The notes under the pieces were generated by a model that was given only the letters and a program-made list of their open reading frames with translations, was not told where the DNA came from and searched no databases. From Rubrivivax sp. (GTDB lineage: Bacteria; Pseudomonadota; Gammaproteobacteria; Burkholderiales; Burkholderiaceae_C): 64,000 nucleotides of DNA. The position numbers and the translations under genes were made by a program. The stretch covers positions 62,001-126,000 of the forward strand of contig JAUXRG010000098.1 in the NCBI GenBank assembly GCA_030681795.1, in the 5' to 3' direction. Shown piece after piece: positions 2,891-59,540 of the stretch (the stretch's first letter is position 1; the number at the start of each line of letters is the position of its first letter).

Positions 2891-2965
2891 GCTCTTGTGA
2901 ATCCTGCACGTGCCGCTCGCGCCTTTGGGCTGGAGAGCCCGATCATCGCCGCGCATCGCGTTCGA

Positions 2966-3006
2966 TTGAGCGTGCTCAATGCGCTGGCTGGCCTGGCACC
3001 TATTCT
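2966..3006 (+). promoter_or_regulatory. FNR-type box with -10 element
   Basis: TTGAGCGTGCTCAA (2966-2979) matches the FNR/DNR/FixK consensus TTGA-N6-TCAA with perfect dyad symmetry of its five-base arms. A TATTCT -10 box lies at 3001-3006. A start site near 3014 would put the box centre at -41.5, the canonical class II activator position. The Crp/Fnr gene at 4102-5028 is a candidate for the cognate regulator. Confidence 0.65.
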
Positions 3007-3012
3007 TGGTTT

Positions 3013-3198
3013 GTGTGCGGTGGGAGAGTGAAACCGATCGCCGCGCGCGATGGTGAGGATTCCCCTTGAGGGGGAAGTTACGTGATGTGCCCACATCACG
3101 GGGATGAAGACACCCTCAGACCGGCGGGGCCGCAGCTGGCTTCGTCGGGGGTCTTCACCGGGCCCGCCACGACGCAAGAACTGGCGGGCCTTCATTTT
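3013..3198 (+). ncRNA. Candidate FNR-activated small RNA
   Basis: This 424-base stretch between tRNA-Ala and the universal stress gene has no convincing coding frame. Reading from the predicted start, it contains a hairpin at 3060-3076 (TTCCCC/GGGGAA, loop TTGAG), a near-perfect hairpin at 3081-3100 (CGTGATGTG/CACATCACG), a longer imperfect stem (3105-3155, GAAGAC/GTCTTC) and a final terminator. A promoter with FNR box, stacked hairpins and a terminator with no gene between them together fit a regulatory RNA of about 185 bases. It is not a family I recognise. Tiny frames such as the 11-codon one at 3050 lack a ribosome binding site. Expression is not proven. Confidence 0.5.
3161..3198 (+). 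terminator. Intrinsic terminator of the candidate small RNA
   Basis: GGCCCGCCA (3161-3169) pairs with TGGCGGGCC (3182-3190), nine perfect base pairs, followed directly by TTCATTTT on the plus strand. The T tract is absent on the other strand, so it terminates rightward transcription, for which no protein gene exists here. Confidence 0.7.
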
Positions 3199-3280
3199 GC
3201 GCGGCCGCTGCGCAGCGTGGGTCAGCGCGCGGCCTTCGGCAAGCGGGGTCGGCGCTCGCCCTGGGCCCCGATCGCGGCCT

Positions 3281-4105
3281 TCAGTGCGCCATCAACACGG
3301 GCAGCGTCATGCTCTGCAGCACGGTGCGCGAGGCCCCGCCCAGCACCAGTTCGCGCGCCCGGCTGTGGCCGTAGCAGCCCATCACGAGTAAATCGGCGGC
3401 GGTGTCGGCGGCCAGCGAGAGCAGCGCTTCGCCGACCTCGCCCGAGCCCAGCACATGCCGCCGCAGCGGCGCGGTGACACCCTGCAGGCGCAGCCAGCTC
3501 TCCAGCGCCGCGATATCGGCGTGGCCACCCTCCTGGGCTGCGGGCTGGCGGGCCACGTGCACGGCAGCGGCCTGGCGCAGCCAGGGCAGCGCCGCGCTGG
3601 CCGCCCGGGCGGCCTCGCGCGTGGGCTTCCAGGCCAGCAGCACCTGGCTACCGATTTGCTCTGCCGGGCCGACGCAGGGCACGACCAGGGTCGGCCTGCC
3701 GCTGTCGGTGATGACCGAGGGAACGAAATCGGGCGGCAGGGCGCCGGTCTGGTCGTCACTGGAGTCGCCCTGGCCAAGCACCACGAGATCGGCGAAGAGC
3801 GCGGCCTGCAAAAAGGCGAAGCGCAGGCCCTCGAAATTCGCTTCCAGCCACTGCATGGGCCCCGACCCGGCTTCGCGGTCGAACAAGGCCCGCGCCCGGT
3901 CGCGCTGCAGGCGATCGAATTCGAACAACGCCGAGGCCGCGGAGGACATGCCTTCGGCGCTGGCCCAGGGCACCGCCAGCAGGCTGGGGAGCACGGCATA
4001 CATCGCCGTCAGGCGGGCGCCCTGCTGTTGTGCCACGCGATGCGCCAGGGCCAGCCGTACGGCCGAACGCGGCGAGGCGTCGAGGTGAACGAGGACGCTC
4101 TTCAT
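3281..4105 (-). CDS. Universal stress protein with two UspA domains
   Basis: The 274-residue protein begins with MKSVLVHLDAS, typical of UspA, and is long enough for two tandem domains. The C-terminal copy keeps the nucleotide-binding pattern G-x2-G-x9-G-S/A as GCYGHSRARELVLGGAS; the first copy is more divergent. Such proteins help cells survive oxygen limitation and other stresses, probably by binding ATP. The start at 4105 has GGGAG seven bases upstream and overlaps the stop of the Crp/Fnr gene as ATGA, so the two are translationally coupled. The final gene of its unit, it may be controlled by the same FNR-type signals. Confidence 0.92.
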   Translation of the reverse strand: MKSVLVHLDASPRSAVRLALAHRVAQQQGARLTAMYAVLPSLLAVPWASAEGMSSAASALFEFDRLQRDRARALFDREAGSGPMQWLEANFEGLRFAFLQAALFADLVVLGQGDSSDDQTGALPPDFVPSVITDSGRPTLVVPCVGPAEQIGSQVLLAWKPTREAARAASAALPWLRQAAAVHVARQPAAQEGGHADIAALESWLRLQGVTAPLRRHVLGSGEVGEALLSLAADTAADLLVMGCYGHSRARELVLGGASRTVLQSMTLPVLMAH

Positions 4106-5028
4106 GTGGGCTCCCTGAGGCCGGCACTTGCGCGGCGGTGGGCCCAGCCCGCGGCCGTGCCGGCCAACTCGATGCCCGCCCACCACACCGGGCCTGCCCG
4201 GCGCCCATGTGGAGCTTCCGCGTGGCCATGGTCCGCGGGCAGGTCATCGCCCACGTTGCGTGTGCTGCGGGCGCGGGCCTGCAGTCGCGCGAGGTCGAGA
4301 AGCTCGACTTCGCGGTTGTTCACCTTGATGCAGCCGCCGTCGGCCAGCGCGCTGAAGGAACGGCTCACCGTCTCGTGGGCCACGCCCAGGCAGCTGGCGA
4401 TGTCGCGCCGACACATGGCCAGGTGCAGGCGGCGCGGCGAGCGTCCGAGCTCGGCCATGCGCGACGACATCCACAACAGGAAGCGGGCCAGCCGCACGTC
4501 GGCCGCCACCGCGGCCATCATCTCCGTCAATTCGGCGGCCCGCGCGAGCTGGCGGCTCAGGGCCAGCAGCAAGGCCTGGTCAAAGGCGGGTGAGTGCAGC
4601 CGCAAGCCGCGCAAGTCCTGCAGCGGCAGGACATACACCGTGCATTCCTCCAGCGCCTGCGCGCTGACGGGCTGGGTGCCTCGGCACAAGGCATCGAAGC
4701 CCAACACCTCGCCCAGGCCGGCAAACGACAGCACCTGCTCGTAGCCGTCTTCCGCGGTCTTGACGCAGCGCATCGTGCCCGAGCGCATCACGTGCAGGTC
4801 TTGCACACGCGACCCCTCGTGGAACAGCACCGCACCCTGGCGCACATGCCACAGCGCGATGGGCAGGCGGGCCTCGTCGCCGCCCAGGGCCTCGGCGCCG
4901 CCGCCCAGGGTTCGCACCAGATCGGCCAGGTGGCCCAGGGTTTCGGACGGGCTCGCATGGCCGCCGCGCGTCGGGGGGCTGGCCAGCGGCGTGCCGCTGG
5001 GTTCGAGCTGCAGGACCGGGGTGCCCAT
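4102..5028 (-). CDS. Crp/Fnr-family transcriptional regulator without N-terminal Fe-S cysteines
   Basis: A 308-residue protein with a cyclic-nucleotide-binding fold (about 60-165) and a C-terminal winged helix. The recognition helix reads HETVSR, keeping the E-x-x-S-R set that FNR uses to read TTGAT half-sites. No cysteine occurs before about residue 88, so the 4Fe-4S sensor of true FNR is absent. It is more like FixK or DNR, controlled by its own synthesis or by heme, than a direct oxygen sensor. The last 60 residues after the helix-turn-helix are an unusual low-complexity tail. It is co-transcribed with the universal stress gene and lies opposite a FixJ-like regulator across a perfect FNR box. 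Confidence 0.9.
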   Translation of the reverse strand: MGTPVLQLEPSGTPLASPPTRGGHASPSETLGHLADLVRTLGGGAEALGGDEARLPIALWHVRQGAVLFHEGSRVQDLHVMRSGTMRCVKTAEDGYEQVLSFAGLGEVLGFDALCRGTQPVSAQALEECTVYVLPLQDLRGLRLHSPAFDQALLLALSRQLARAAELTEMMAAVAADVRLARFLLWMSSRMAELGRSPRRLHLAMCRRDIASCLGVAHETVSRSFSALADGGCIKVNNREVELLDLARLQARARSTRNVGDDLPADHGHAEAPHGRRAGPVWWAGIELAGTAAGWAHRRASAGLREPT

Positions 5029-5235: not shown

Positions 5236-5249
5236 TTGATGGCGATCAA
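5236..5249. promoter_or_regulatory. Consensus FNR box
   Basis: TTGATGGCGATCAA is an exact match to TTGAT-N4-ATCAA. It lies between two divergent regulatory genes, 208 bases from the Crp/Fnr start and 126 from the response regulator start. No good -10 box was found 41 bases to either side, so which gene it controls, or whether it is autoregulatory, is open. The rest of the 5029-5374 gap shows only the palindrome at 5176. Confidence 0.65.
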
Positions 5250-5374: not shown

Positions 5375-6067
5375 ATGAAGCAGGTGGCGATGTCCCCGCC
5401 GGGTGAGGCCCACGCGCTTCGCATCCTGCTCGTCGACGACCACGCCATCGTGCGCGAGGGGCTCAAGCGCCTCCTCGAAGGCACGGGTTGGTCGATTGCC
5501 GAAGCTGAGAACGGTTTCCAGGCGCTGGAGTTGATGCGCCGCGAGCCCTTCGACCTGGCGATCATCGACCTCTCCATGCCCGGCATGAGCGGCCTGGATC
5601 TGCTGCACCGCACGCGCGCCGAGTTCGCCCGCATGGGCATTCTGGTGCTGAGCATGCACGCCGAGGAGCAGTACGCGATGCGGGCCTTCAAGGCCGGGGC
5701 CAACGGCTATGTCACCAAGGACAGCGCGGCGCGCGAACTCGTCAACGCGGTGCGCAAGGTGGCCGCCGGTGGGGCCTACGTCAGCGCCGGCCTGGCCGAG
5801 CGCATGGTGCTGCAACTCGGCGGCACCATGCAGGTGCCGCGGCACACCGAGCTCTCCGACCGCGAGCTCGACGTCCTGCGCCGCCTGGTGGCCGGCCAGC
5901 GGCCCACCGAGATCGCCCAGGCGCTGCACCTGTCGGTGAAGACCGTGAGCACGCACAAGACGCGCATCCAGGACAAGCTGCAACTGCACAACACCGCCGC
6001 CCTGGTGCGCTACGGCATGGAAAACGGCCTGTGCGCCGACGACGCGGTGCCCGAGTCCGGCTTTTGA
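5375..6067 (+). CDS. NarL/FixJ-family response regulator
   Basis: The 230-residue protein has a receiver domain with the acidic pair D21/D22, phospho-acceptor D65 (IIDLSMPG) and the conserved lysine in YVTKDS, then a LuxR-type helix-turn-helix (LSDRELDVLRRL, KTVSTHKTRI). It should bind DNA as a dimer when phosphorylated. An alternative start at 5390 has AGG five bases before it and would drop five residues. The kinase gene at 10873-12294, with a HisKA_3 domain that pairs with this regulator class, is the most likely partner although 4.8 kb away. It sits across from the Crp/Fnr gene, as fixJ-fixK type pairs often do. Confidence 0.92.
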   Translation: MKQVAMSPPGEAHALRILLVDDHAIVREGLKRLLEGTGWSIAEAENGFQALELMRREPFDLAIIDLSMPGMSGLDLLHRTRAEFARMGILVLSMHAEEQYAMRAFKAGANGYVTKDSAARELVNAVRKVAAGGAYVSAGLAERMVLQLGGTMQVPRHTELSDRELDVLRRLVAGQRPTEIAQALHLSVKTVSTHKTRIQDKLQLHNTAALVRYGMENGLCADDAVPESGF

Positions 6068-6069
6068 GT

Positions 6070-7734
6070 TCAGGCCGGCCGTTCGCACGGCGGCACCGGC
6101 CCGGCCTGACCCAGCCGCTCGAGCAGCGGTCCCCAATCGGCCTGCGGCGCAGCGTCACCCGCATCCGGCAGCGGCCGGCAGCGAAACACCACGCCGCCTT
6201 CGTCGGCCTGCAGCGGCTCGGCCGTGCGCCATTGCATCTGCAGCACCCGCTCGTCGGCTTCGGAGGCGTCGGCCGCCAGGGCCGCGCGGCGGTGCACGCG
6301 CTCGCGCAGGGTGGCCGGTGCGGCTTCGAAGTCGAGGAGGACCGCGGCAACGCCCTGCGCTGCCGCCACGCGCCGTGCGGCGTCGCGCTGGGCCCGTTTC
6401 AGGAAGGTCGCATCGAGGATCACGGGGTAGCCGCCCTGCAGCACCGGCACGGCCAGCCGCACCAGCCGCGCGTAGGTGGCCGCGGTGCTTTCGCCGCTGT
6501 AGAGGCCGGCCTCCAAGGGCGAGGCGCTGCGGGCCAGCGCATCCAGCCCGGCCAGGCGCTTGCGCTCGACATCGGCACGGATGCGGATGGCGCCCGCGGC
6601 CTCCAGCAGGCCCTGCGTCAGGCTGGTCTTGCCGCTGCCCGAGGGTCCGTGCGTGAACATCAATGCCGGGTGCCCCGGCTGGCTGCTTTGCACGGCCAGA
6701 TGCAGGAACTGGCGCACCGACTCGGCCGCTGCCGTCGCGGCTGCCTCCTCGCACCCGGGTTGCGCCGCGCGCATCGCCGCCACCTTGGCGCGCACCAGGG
6801 CGCGGTGCACGATGTAGTAGCGCAGCACGCGTGCGCCGTCATAGTCGCCACTGCCCTGCAAGTAGGCATTGACGAAGCGGTGGGCCAAGGCGTGCAGCGC
6901 GTGCGCCTGGAGGTCCATGGCCATGAAGGCGACCTCGCTGATGACGTCGATCCAGCGGAAATCGTCGTTGAACTCGATACCGTCGAAGACCGTGGTCCGC
7001 CCGGCGATGAATGTGACGTTGCCCAGGTGCAGGTCGCCGTGGCACTCGCGCACGCGGCCCTCGGCCAGGCGCTGGGCAAAGACGGGCTCGAGCGCCGCCC
7101 AGGCCCGAACTTCCCAGCCCCGCAGCTGCTGCAACCGGGCGCGCTCGGCGGGCTGCGTGAGCAGGCCATCCAGCGCCTCCAGGTTGTCGAGCATGGGCGC
7201 TCGCACCTGCGCCGGCGTGCCCAGCCGGCCCTGGGCATCGGCCACCGCCGCGGCCGCATGGAAGGCGCACAGCAGCCCCGCCAATTCGTCGATGTGGGCA
7301 CTGCGCAGCGCCGCGCGCGCCGCCAGGCGGTCCCACAGGCCTTCCTGCGCGAAGGCCCGCATCTTCACTGCGCAGTCGATCATGGGGCCGGCGCCGCCGA
7401 GCACCGGTGCATCGGGCGTGCCGGCCACGGCCACCACATCGAGATACAGGTCCGGCGCCAGGCGGCGGTTCAGCCGCAATTCCTCATGGCAGCAATGCAG
7501 GCGCAGGGCCAGCGTCGAGTAGTCGAGGAAACCCGGCCGCAGCGCCTTCTTGAATTTGTAGGCATGCCCGCCGGCGATGAGCACGAAGGAGATATGGGTC
7601 TCGATGAGCTCGACGCGGGGGCCCGGGTGGCGTGCCTGCAGCGCCAGCCGCAGCGCCTGGACCATGGCCGCTTGTTCGGCCGGCGTCAGCTCGGTGCCCG
7701 CGGCAGGTTGCGATGGCGGCGTGGCGGCGTGCAT
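6070..7734 (-). CDS. Fused aminoglycoside-phosphotransferase-like and P-loop kinase protein
   Basis: The 554-residue protein joins two kinase-like halves. The N-terminal half has the APH/choline-kinase signature HGDLHLGN (from residue 232) followed by the DGIEFND segment that replaces the metal-binding D. The C-terminal half has a Walker A loop GPSGSGKTS (363-371) of the AAA_33/zeta-toxin type. Homologues annotated as bifunctional kinases occur widely in proteobacteria and often sit with stress or denitrification genes, but no substrate is known. The start at 7734 is the best of several and lacks a clear ribosome binding site. It ends three bases from the response regulator, converging on it. 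Confidence 0.85.
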   Translation of the reverse strand: MHAATPPSQPAAGTELTPAEQAAMVQALRLALQARHPGPRVELIETHISFVLIAGGHAYKFKKALRPGFLDYSTLALRLHCCHEELRLNRRLAPDLYLDVVAVAGTPDAPVLGGAGPMIDCAVKMRAFAQEGLWDRLAARAALRSAHIDELAGLLCAFHAAAAVADAQGRLGTPAQVRAPMLDNLEALDGLLTQPAERARLQQLRGWEVRAWAALEPVFAQRLAEGRVRECHGDLHLGNVTFIAGRTTVFDGIEFNDDFRWIDVISEVAFMAMDLQAHALHALAHRFVNAYLQGSGDYDGARVLRYYIVHRALVRAKVAAMRAAQPGCEEAAATAAAESVRQFLHLAVQSSQPGHPALMFTHGPSGSGKTSLTQGLLEAAGAIRIRADVERKRLAGLDALARSASPLEAGLYSGESTAATYARLVRLAVPVLQGGYPVILDATFLKRAQRDAARRVAAAQGVAAVLLDFEAAPATLRERVHRRAALAADASEADERVLQMQWRTAEPLQADEGGVVFRCRPLPDAGDAAPQADWGPLLERLGQAGPVPPCERPA

Positions 7735-7856: not shown

Positions 7857-7900
7857 TTGAGGGCGCTCAATGATCCGCGCCGCCATCGCGTGACCATACG
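7857..7900 (+). promoter_or_regulatory. FNR-type box upstream of the class II RNR operon
   Basis: TTGAGGGCGCTCAA (7857-7870) has the same TTGAG/CTCAA arms as the box at 2966. A weak -10 element (CATACG, 7895-7900) would put the start site near 7906, with the box centred close to -42. This fits anaerobic activation of the two genes from 7947. A plausible -10 in the opposite direction was not seen. The rest of the 7735-7946 gap appears empty. Confidence 0.6.
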
Positions 7901-7946: not shown

Positions 7947-9035
7947 ATGAACCCTCACCCCGCCCCCCCTTTCGACACCTGGCAGTGGCTGCAGGCTTGC
8001 CACGAGACCTGGCAGGCCACGCTGGACCCGGCGCGCGTGGGACGCAGGTTTCGCCGGGCTCGGCTGGCGCGCCTCATCGCCACGGCGCAGCGCGATTCGC
8101 CGCTGTACGCCCGGCGCAATGCCGGTGCACAAGAATTGAGCGACTTCGCGCCTGTCACCCGGGCCGAGCTGATGCACCAGTTCAACGACTGGGCCACCGA
8201 CCGGCGCATCACGCGCGAGGCGGCCGAGGCCTTCGTCGCCGATCCCGACGGCGTCGCCGATGCCTGGCTGGGCCGCTACCTGCTGTGGACCAGCCTGGGC
8301 AGCGGCGGCGAGCCGGGTCTGTTCGTCCAGGACGCGGCCAGCCTGGCCGCCTACGAAGCCCTCGATGCGTTGCGCCTGCGCGCCGCCGACCCGGCCCAGG
8401 CGGCGCTCGGCCTGTGGGGTCTGGGGCGGCGATTCGCCTATGTCGGCGCCATCGGGGGCCACCGCGCCGGCCACGCCAGCATCGAGCGGCTGCGCCGCGT
8501 CGTGCCTGCGGCCTGGGCGCCGCAGGTCGATGTCCTCTCGGCGCGCGAGCCGCTGCCCCTGCTGGCCGAACGCCTGCAGGCCCTGCAGCCCGGGGTGCTG
8601 ATCACGCACCCGAGTTGTGCCGCCGCGCTGGCCGGCCTGCAGGCGCAAGGCGAGTTGCACCTGCGGCTGGACGAGTTGTGGTTGGGCGGCGAGCCGCTCA
8701 TGCCGGCGCAACGCGAACGCCTGCACGGGGCTTTCGGCTGCACGGTGCGCAACAGCTATGGCTCATCGGAGTTCCGCTCGATCGCCTACGAATGCAGGCA
8801 TGGCAGCCTGCACCTGAACGACGACTGGGTGATCCTGGAAGCGGTGGACGAGCACTGGCGAGCGGTGCCACCCGGCGTGCTTTCGCACACCACGCTGCTC
8901 ACCAACCTGGCCAACCTGACACAACCGCTGCTGCGTTGCGAGTTGCCGGATCGCGTGCGCTTCCTCACCGAGCCCTGCCCCTGCGGCAGCGCCTTGCCGG
9001 TCATCGAGGTGCAAGGCCGGGCCACCACCCATTGA
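7947..9035 (+). CDS. F390 synthetase/phenylacetate-CoA ligase-like adenylate-forming protein
   Basis: A 362-residue member of the ANL superfamily related to CapK, phenylacetate-CoA ligase and coenzyme F390 synthetase. It has a glycine-rich phosphate loop TSLGSGGEPG (from residue 115) and the YGSSE adenylation motif (from 271). It is shorter than phenylacetate-CoA ligase (about 430) because the mobile C-terminal lid domain is missing, so it may only adenylate, or may be regulatory. It lies 12 bases upstream of the class II reductase and shares its FNR-type promoter, which suggests a joint role under low oxygen. The substrate is unknown. Confidence 0.8.
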   Translation: MNPHPAPPFDTWQWLQACHETWQATLDPARVGRRFRRARLARLIATAQRDSPLYARRNAGAQELSDFAPVTRAELMHQFNDWATDRRITREAAEAFVADPDGVADAWLGRYLLWTSLGSGGEPGLFVQDAASLAAYEALDALRLRAADPAQAALGLWGLGRRFAYVGAIGGHRAGHASIERLRRVVPAAWAPQVDVLSAREPLPLLAERLQALQPGVLITHPSCAAALAGLQAQGELHLRLDELWLGGEPLMPAQRERLHGAFGCTVRNSYGSSEFRSIAYECRHGSLHLNDDWVILEAVDEHWRAVPPGVLSHTTLLTNLANLTQPLLRCELPDRVRFLTEPCPCGSALPVIEVQGRATTH

Positions 9036-9047
9036 CCCGGGCGTGCC

Positions 9048-10853
9048 ATGGACATCGCCAGCCAACCGATCAGCCACGACGTGTTGATGGATCTCTACGC
9101 CCAACCCGGCGAGCGCAGCATCGACGACGTGCGCCGGCGCATCGCCCGCGCCCTGGCGCAGGCCGAGGTGCCGGCGCGGCGCGCGGCCTGGGAAGCGCGT
9201 TTCCTGGCCGTCCAGCAGGCCGGCTTCATCCCGGCGGGCCGCATCGCAGCGCACGCCGGCACGGGCCTGCGGGCCACGCTGATCAACTGCTTCGTGCAGC
9301 CCCTGGCCGATTCGATCAGCCACGCCGAAGGCCCCTGGCCTTCGATCTACACCGCACTGGCCGAAACCGCCGAGACGCTGCGCCTGGGTGGCGGCGTGGG
9401 GCTGGATTTCTCGCCCATCCGGCCGATCGGCGCGCAGGTCGCCAGCACGCAGCTGCAGGCCGCCGGGCCGCTGGCCTTCATGCGCCTGTTCGATGCCTCA
9501 TGCCAGGCGCTGGACAGCTCGACCCCGCGGCGCAGCGCGTTGATGGCGGTGCTGCGCTGGGACCACCCCGACGTCGAATCCTTCGTCAGCGCCAAGGCCG
9601 GCGGCGGGCTCGAACATTTCAACCTCTCGGTCGCGGTGGGCGACGCCTTCATGCACGCGATCGAGGCCGGTTCGGAGATCGAACTGGTGCACGCCGCCGA
9701 GCCCGGCCCGGCGCAGCAGGCCGCGGGCGCCGCGCGGCGCGCCGACGGGAGGTGGACCTACCGCCGACTCGGGGCACGCAGCCTGTGGGACCAGATCGTG
9801 CGCTCGGCGCACGGGCACGGCGAACCAGGGCTGCTGTTCCTGGACCGCATCAACGCCGACAACAACCTGGCCTACTGCGAGACGATCACCGCCACCAACC
9901 CCTGCGGCGAGCAGCCCTTGCCGCCCTATGGCGCTTGTTGCCTGGGCTCGATCGATCTCACGCGCCTGGTCACCCAGCCTTTCGAGCCGGCGGCAGGCTT
10001 CGACTTCGCCCGTCTGCACGCCATCGTGCCGGTGGCCGTGCGCATGCTGGACAACGTGCTCGAGATCAGCGCCTGGCCCTTGCCGCAGCAGCAGGCGCAG
10101 GCCCAGGCCAAGCGGCGCATCGGCCTGGGCTACACCGGCCTGGGCGACGCACTGGCCATGCTCGGCCTGCACTACGACAGCGAGGCCGCGCGCGCCATGG
10201 CCACCCGCATCACGCGCGTCTTGCGCGACACGGCCTACGCCGCCTCGACCGCCCTGGCGCGTGAACGCGGCGCATTCCCGCTCTTCGATGCCCAGGGCCT
10301 GCTGCGCGAGGGCAGCTGCGCCTCGCGTCTGCCGCCGGCGTTGCGCCAGCGCATCTTGGCGTGCGGCCTGCGCAACTCGCACCTGCTGTCGATCGCCCCG
10401 GCCGGCAGCGTCAGCCTGGCATTTGCCGACAACGCCAGCAGCGGCATCGAGCCCGCTTACGCCTGGCACTACCTGAGGGACCGGCGTTGCCACCGCGGGC
10501 CGGGTGTGACCGCCTACGACGTCGAGGACCATGCCTGGCGCCTGTTCCATCGTCTCAAGGGCGATCAGGCGCCGCTGCCCGCCGCCTTCGTCCATGCCCT
10601 GGAGCTCTCGGCGCGGGCCCACCTGGAGATGGTCGCCGCGGTGGCGCCCTATATCGACGGCGCCATTTCCAAGACCGTGAATGCGCCCGAGTCGTGTCCT
10701 CTCGGCGAATTCGCGTCGCTGTACCGGCAGGCCTGGCTTCTCGGGCTCAAGGGCATCACCGCCTTCCGCCCCAACCGCGTCTTCGGCGCGGTGCTGCATG
10801 CGCGCGCGGCACAGGCCACACCGGCACCGGCCCGGCGCCGCGGGGCGAATTGA
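9048..10853 (+). CDS. nrdJ: Adenosylcobalamin-dependent (class II) ribonucleotide reductase, short form
   Basis: A 601-residue class II reductase, which makes deoxynucleotides without oxygen using coenzyme B12. The active-site motif NPCGEQ places the thiyl-radical cysteine at C286, with the N-x-C-x-E triad intact. C297 in GACCLGS and C81 in NCFVQ match the redox pair by comparison with the Thermotoga enzyme. The common C-terminal cysteine-rich tail that re-reduces the active site is absent, so thioredoxin or another partner must act directly. An FNR-type box upstream fits use under low oxygen. It converges on the sensor kinase with a 19-base gap. Confidence 0.92.
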   Translation: MDIASQPISHDVLMDLYAQPGERSIDDVRRRIARALAQAEVPARRAAWEARFLAVQQAGFIPAGRIAAHAGTGLRATLINCFVQPLADSISHAEGPWPSIYTALAETAETLRLGGGVGLDFSPIRPIGAQVASTQLQAAGPLAFMRLFDASCQALDSSTPRRSALMAVLRWDHPDVESFVSAKAGGGLEHFNLSVAVGDAFMHAIEAGSEIELVHAAEPGPAQQAAGAARRADGRWTYRRLGARSLWDQIVRSAHGHGEPGLLFLDRINADNNLAYCETITATNPCGEQPLPPYGACCLGSIDLTRLVTQPFEPAAGFDFARLHAIVPVAVRMLDNVLEISAWPLPQQQAQAQAKRRIGLGYTGLGDALAMLGLHYDSEAARAMATRITRVLRDTAYAASTALARERGAFPLFDAQGLLREGSCASRLPPALRQRILACGLRNSHLLSIAPAGSVSLAFADNASSGIEPAYAWHYLRDRRCHRGPGVTAYDVEDHAWRLFHRLKGDQAPLPAAFVHALELSARAHLEMVAAVAPYIDGAISKTVNAPESCPLGEFASLYRQAWLLGLKGITAFRPNRVFGAVLHARAAQATPAPARRRGAN

Positions 10854-59198: not shown

Positions 59199-59324
59199 CG
59201 GGGCTCCTTGCGGAATGGCGGGCCGCGCATGATGCCAAGGTCTGGCTCCCGAGGCCTGGCACCTGGCGAACCGCCCGTGTCGAACCGCCCGAGTCGAACC
59301 CCTGATGGCCGCTGATACACTGGC

Positions 59325-59540
59325 CAGCGTCAGGAGAGAGCTCCGCTCGCCGGGGCCGCCGAAGGCGCAGAGGCCACTTGCGTGGCGCTTCGAACGCTCA
59401 GGCAAAAGGACTGATTTTTTACCTCACTGGAGAGAGGTTGCCGAGCGCCAAGCGAGGCAGCCCACCGAAGGGGCAAGGCCTGCCGGTCCTCGCGGATGCG
59501 GCGGCGCTGAATCTCTCAGGTAAAGCGGACAGCGAGGGCC
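59325..59540 (+). promoter_or_regulatory. Tandem glycine riboswitch
   Basis: Two glycine aptamers lie head to tail before gcvT. Aptamer 1 (about 59325-59415) shows CAGGAGAGA, CCGAAGG and CTCAGGCAAAAGGACTG. Aptamer 2 (about 59425-59540) shows CTGGAGAGAG, CCGAAGGGGCAAGG and CTCTCAGGTAAAGCGGACAG. The linker between them is T-rich. Glycine binding should switch on the glycine cleavage operon. A likely -10 (GATACA, about 59314-59319) lies just upstream. Confidence 0.95.

Follow-up and report, generated by a model that had tools for sequence, protein, structure and literature searches.

FnrS of enteric bacteria is induced anaerobically and has a class II FNR site with its centre at -41.5; the fnrS RNA of Neisseria gonorrhoeae is likewise activated by FNR and combines an FNR box, a -10 element and a Rho-independent terminator; both are treated as regulators of other genes (PMC3032703). 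In the Burkholderiales, the RIT1 and RIT81 RNAs of Burkholderia cenocepacia are raised under oxygen limitation (PMC10987360), sbcD RNA and the Burkholderiales-1 motif have been described as candidate structured RNAs (PMC2864571), and the lxa locus of B. cenocepacia, which encodes Usp, heat-shock and BON-domain proteins, has been linked to oxygen limitation (PMC6127331). Here we analyse positions 2966-3198 of a 64,000-nucleotide stretch of DNA from Rubrivivax sp. (contig JAUXRG010000098.1; "the window" throughout), for which an initial annotation made from the letters alone had proposed an undescribed, FNR-driven small RNA. Comparison among 39 copies indicates that this stretch is almost certainly a real RNA gene. 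It appears to represent a new RNA family, one that reaches the cut-off of no Rfam model; RIT1, RIT81 and Burkholderiales-1 are known to us by description only.

Like FnrS and its gonococcal counterpart, the stretch carries an FNR box at class II distance, a -10 element and a terminator. Unlike FnrS, it has no Rfam match at cut-off and holds a pseudoknotted core without an evident seed, and its distribution, within the samples searched, is limited to one Burkholderiales family. The comparison with FnrS made in the initial annotation thus held for promoter logic and went no further, the kept feature being a folded RNA with no evident antisense seed. RIT1 and RIT81 would resemble the RNA in being oxygen-responsive RNAs of the Burkholderiales, a likeness of description and not of sequence, and Burkholderiales-1, which stands without an Rfam accession in the table of PMC2864571, is likened in the same way. 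Similarly to the lxa locus, copies of the RNA have Usp, BON and chaperonin genes nearby. Phosphoribosyltransferase and CBS domains are also common near the copies; a search of PMC6127331 turned up neither for the lxa locus, from which an RNA of this family is not known.

A literature search, limited mostly to open-access papers without supplements, yielded no published description that we recognised. We then consider Rfam, where a scan of all 4227 families, among which we take FnrS to be included, found none at its cut-off in the stretch, and 20 further relatives gave no match within the RNA at E up to 1. The initial description of the RNA as undescribed and without visible similarity to FnrS agrees with this absence of families at cut-off from the window copy and the scanned relatives. 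Four weaker matches were rejected. Two were in the window, mir-8229 (15.6 bits, against a cut-off of 45) and sbcD RNA (RF01757; 13.9 bits, E 2.2, against 40), the latter of which did not turn up again among 25 relatives scanned. The other two were in the relative L008, namely the Burkholderia small RNA Bp2_287 (RF02424; 27.1 bits, against 70) and ncr1175 (27.8 bits), whose alignments take in the terminator stem together with DNA downstream of it.

Copies of the RNA and their probable FNR-type promoters

Plain blastn with positions 2960-3200 found a match in 5 of 61 genomes, the source genome included. One relative (L005) was dropped because its match spanned 27 bases only, and the remaining three sit in other gene neighbourhoods. 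A first covariance model, built from four RNA parts (the window and these three relatives), recovered copies above 55 bits in 15 of 399 sampled genomes of the family, and a second, built from 20 copies, recovered copies above 80 bits in 15 of 399, with two copies each in G087 and G173. The genus search found three copies in one genome (G031) and two each in G486 and G494. In an order-wide sample of 399 genomes, matches from beyond the window's family stayed at or below 31 bits, and plasmid and phage collections gave no match to the RNA. With five further named contigs, the total came to 39 copies, all above 50 bits and all, wherever kinship was shown, from one Burkholderiales family. Named carriers include Hydrogenophaga isolates, with the cultivated Hydrogenophaga taeniospiralis among the carriers, and metagenome-assembled genomes (MAGs) labelled Rubrivivax, Leptothrix and Hydrogenophaga. 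Removal of near-duplicates left 36 copies; counts on this set omit the near-duplicates L046, L048 and L054 and the antisense terminator matches L052 and L054. The comparison demonstrates, at the level of sequence, that the RNA gene is independent of any one neighbourhood.

Weaker matches were set aside by score. In the two family searches, 19 and 31 of the 399 genomes matched at E 0.001 or better, and 4 and 16 of them were dropped at no more than 34.4 bits; 3 of the 17 matching genomes among 81 in the genus were dropped at no more than 30.7 bits; and of 8 matching genomes among 399 in the order, the 6 outside the family (no more than 31 bits) were dropped, along with a weak third match in G173. 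Rows L021-L024, L049-L051 and L057-L063 had little in common with the RNA except a terminator, and L099-L112 and other weak rows without a locus were dropped by score only. A 20-base pattern also matched an Oligosphaeraceae MAG (L031), which the covariance model did not.

In the window, an exact FNR-type box of the form TTGAN6TCAA (TTGAGCGTGCTCAA) is present on the plus strand at 2966-2979, as initially claimed, and a -10 hexamer, TATTCT, is separated from it by 21 nucleotides (nt) and occupies 3001-3006, which places the box at class II distance from the -10. This spacing fits the earlier claim of a box centred at -41.5 if transcription starts at 3014, the start site suggested by the position of the hexamer. 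The proposed plus-strand transcript of about 185 nt (3014-3198) rests on the spacing of box and -10 and on the terminator, and the covariance model spans 3046-3198 of it. The window holds three TTGAN6TCAA sites where shuffles predict 0.10, and the whole genome holds 55 against 15 for the reversed pattern. A simple scan listed no sigma-70 promoter at the stretch.

Since the covariance models were built from the RNA part alone, without box or promoter, recurrence of the box upstream of the copies constitutes independent evidence. Within 97 nt upstream, a box matching at least 7 of 8 letters was found in 31 of the 36 copies (20 with 8/8 and 11 with 7/8), compared with chance rates in letter-shuffled upstream sequences of 0.06% (8/8) and 1.4% (7/8) per sequence, or about 1.5% together. 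The best -10-like hexamer lay 21-22 nt 3' of the box in 38 of 39 copies, where offsets of 19-24 were permitted and ties were resolved to 21. In the first three relatives, for instance, the box ends 21 nt before TACATT, TAGAGT and a weak CATGCT. The spacing of box, -10 and terminator, whose loss in relatives the initial annotation had named as evidence against its proposal, proved to be conserved. This conservation suggests that the RNA gene is very likely activated by an FNR-type regulator. One copy (L010) has upstream of the RNA a symmetric box, TTGCGAATTCGCAA, matching 6/8 letters, which is perhaps read by another regulator of the Crp/FNR family.

Covarying helices and a pseudoknot

Positions 3013-3198 fold well beyond shuffled sequences (z -5.54, 0 of 200 shuffles), and an alignment of 20 copies revealed both-sided changes at 33 of 43 base pairs, with 93.9% of cells paired. 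None of 500 shuffles of this alignment reached any of five measures, and sliding the helix partners lowered pairing to 41-51%. Three hairpins lie within the core, all on the plus strand: P2 (3060-3065 with 3071-3076; 85.6% of cells paired), P3 (3081-3088 with 3093-3100; both-sided changes at 8 of 8 pairs) and P5 (3121-3131 with 3138-3148; both-sided changes at 5 of the 6 outer pairs counted). A longer-range helix, P4, pairs 3102-3103 and 3105-3111 with 3151-3159 and shows both-sided changes at 6 of 9 pairs.

P4 is crossed by a fifth helix, P1, formed by 3054-3058 and 3114-3118 (TGAGG/CCTCA), giving an H-type pseudoknot whose first loop carries P2 and P3 and whose third carries P5. P1, which was not part of the covariance model, was perfect across 5 nt in 29 of 39 copies, compared with 118 of 858 crossed pairings between copies whose motifs differ. 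Its 4-pair core was standard in 35 of 36 copies, with paired changes at three positions, in a test that placed the 5' strand by a rule leaning towards P1. Single-sequence folding did not recover the pseudoknot. The 5' domain (3011-3050) is closed by a stem, P0, in which the 5' end of the RNA pairs with the letters directly before P1 (3011-3020 with 3041-3050; the first letters possibly precede +1); mean duplex energy was -10.3 kcal/mol, against -6.6 kcal/mol in crossed combinations, and none of 5000 permutations matched it.

The 3' end (3161-3198) is formed by P6, a stem of nine pairs (3161-3169 with 3182-3190) followed by the tail TTCATTTT. P6, which qualifies as an intrinsic terminator, is paired in 98.9% of cells; it was not listed by a simple scan that permits loops of no more than 8. 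The nine-pair stem was as initially described; the T tract behind it is present but interrupted. The "stacked hairpins" of that description proved to be a 5' closing stem followed by a pseudoknot with three inserted hairpins. Comparison among the copies demonstrates the gene, its box with the kept spacing, the fold and the pseudoknot.

Possible action of the RNA

From these features we infer transcription, FNR dependence, action in trans and the kind of partner. As oxygen falls, an FNR-type activator would bind the box at about -41.5 in class II fashion, and RNA polymerase would make a transcript of about 185 nt that ends at the P6 terminator. The 5' end would close in P0 and the core would fold as an H-type pseudoknot (P1 x P4) bearing P2, P3 and P5, with selection keeping this compact core and not a single-stranded seed. 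The RNA would then work in trans by offering the shape of its core to a protein or the translation machinery, within an oxygen-limitation programme whose genes surround many of the copies. We give this reading as a whole, an FNR-activated, stand-alone, pseudoknotted RNA acting in trans through its folded core, an even chance of being right.

Alternatively, the RNA could be an FnrS-like antisense regulator that pairs with mRNAs through a seed in its 5' domain or in a junction, in which case the pseudoknot would chiefly lend stability. Its promoter logic is that of FnrS (PMC3032703), it ends in an intrinsic terminator, and its 5' domain and loops vary, which could allow pairing with lineage-specific targets. 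Against such pairing, the letters kept in 90% of copies of the aligned core are confined to helices or to junctions of no more than about three letters, and no conserved unpaired seed longer than this was seen in that core, the 5' domain being unaligned. Kept junction letters are CAGAC at the P1/P5 junction and GGG ahead of the 3' strand of P4. Moreover, GNRA caps sit on roughly one third of the loops of P2, P5 and P6 (11, 14 and 14 of 36 copies, against 0.4, 1.6 and 1.2 in shuffled sequences); in P3, UNCG caps occur in 4 of 36 copies (0.5 shuffled) and GNRA caps in none (0.5 shuffled). We regard antisense action as doubtful. Because what is kept consists of helices with compensatory changes and short junctions, while loops vary or carry stable caps, a protein or ribosome partner is favoured, and action through the folded core rather than by antisense pairing seems to us marginally the better bet.

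The stretch might also be a leader or attenuator that acts in cis, regulating read-through into an FNR-dependent gene behind it. Of the 36 copies, 18 have a co-oriented and 13, the window copy included, a convergent next gene no more than 272 nt away on the downstream side; in the other 5 it lies farther away. In seven loci the co-oriented gene starts so soon after the terminator (5-47 nt) that a separate promoter would hardly fit, and transcription at these close loci may rely on read-through from the FNR-type promoter. Yet 18 of 31 is statistically indistinguishable from one half (p 0.47), and the presence of both co-oriented and convergent next genes argues that the RNA is not bound in cis to any single gene. 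The adjoining genes also differ from copy to copy, and inspection by eye revealed no conserved alternative to the terminator stem. A leader is thus improbable, and a stand-alone RNA gene is the probable arrangement. That there is no RNA gene at all, but a small coding gene or a chance structure beside an FNR box, is scarcely tenable: on both strands, frames of 95-131 codons run across the stretch, as they do elsewhere in this GC-rich DNA, but covariation and conservation of the box across copies contradict this explanation, and the modelled region ranges in length between 149 and 160 bases in the 39 copies, with short, scattered gaps.

Several observations weigh against an FNR-activated structural RNA acting in trans. 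The RNA is patchy, occurring (above 50 bits) in 14 of 81 genomes of the genus, and none was found beside a Usp gene in G473 that is 82% identical to that of the window, even with filters off. The box matches only 6/8 letters in 4 of 36 copies and 5/8 in one, and the -10 hexamer is weak in 14 of 39 copies, with just 3 of 6 consensus letters matched. The 20-copy alignment was fitted to nested helices and so favours them. The window copy itself has neither a GNRA nor a UNCG cap, as is true of GNRA for two thirds of P2, P5 and P6 loops, and the 5' domain outside P0 was compared by eye only, so that a seed could lie there.

If the reading of a structural RNA is correct, the FNR response would include a structural RNA effector besides antisense regulators. 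A pseudoknotted family that reaches three copies in a genome and often lies near oxygen-limitation genes would bring such an RNA into the low-oxygen programme. We tentatively suggest that an FNR-driven, pseudoknotted and sometimes multi-copy RNA, acting as a structural effector that binds a protein or the ribosome, could represent a new class of oxygen-controlled RNA.

Gene neighbourhoods and other features of the window

In the window, the RNA stretch is preceded by a tRNA-Ala gene (2781-2856) and faces a convergent Usp-domain gene (3281-4105, minus strand), beyond which lies a Crp/FNR gene (4102-5028, minus strand). Pfam assigned the Usp, Crp/FNR and ribonucleotide reductase neighbours, in keeping with the stress protein and ribonucleotide reductase named initially. 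The "FNR-type regulator" of the same description is a member of the Crp/FNR family by Pfam and by its ETVSR helix, but it lacks an N-terminal cysteine cluster. A CxxCxxxxxC cluster, which we take to be of the FNR kind, occurs in a protein encoded elsewhere in the genome at L118, the only such protein among 12 Crp/FNR loci read, in a reading that printed only proteins carrying a chosen helix motif. Two further exact FNR-type boxes lie in the window, one at 5236-5249, between the Crp/FNR gene and a response-regulator gene (5375-6067, plus strand), and one at 7857-7870, upstream of a gene at 7947 and of the ribonucleotide reductase at 9048. These boxes suggest a local FNR-type regulon.

We also examined the flanking genes of 31 copies, two per side, which after losses at contig ends gave 116 proteins, without a background set for comparison. 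The commonest Pfam domains were phosphoribosyltransferase (6), CBS (5), Usp (5), Crp-type helix-turn-helix (5), cNMP-binding (5) and BON (4), with Cpn60 (3) among the less common. The neighbours of the RNA thus appear to include genes of an oxygen-limitation type, namely Usp, Crp/FNR, BON and chaperonin. Within the genus, a homologue of the window's Usp gene (at least 75 bits) was present in 12 of 14 carriers of the RNA and in 26 of 67 non-carriers (one-sided Fisher p 0.0015, relatedness ignored).

Among individual loci, L038, L040, L053, L013 and L025 have a co-oriented gene 5-37 nt past the terminator. AAA_33 occurs in 3 of the 116 neighbouring proteins, and in the window a minus-strand gene at 6070-7734 encodes a protein with phosphotransferase-like (APH) and AAA_33/Zeta_toxin-like domains. 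Farther along the window, positions 59321-59423 hold a glycine riboswitch aptamer (RF00504, 56.2 bits).
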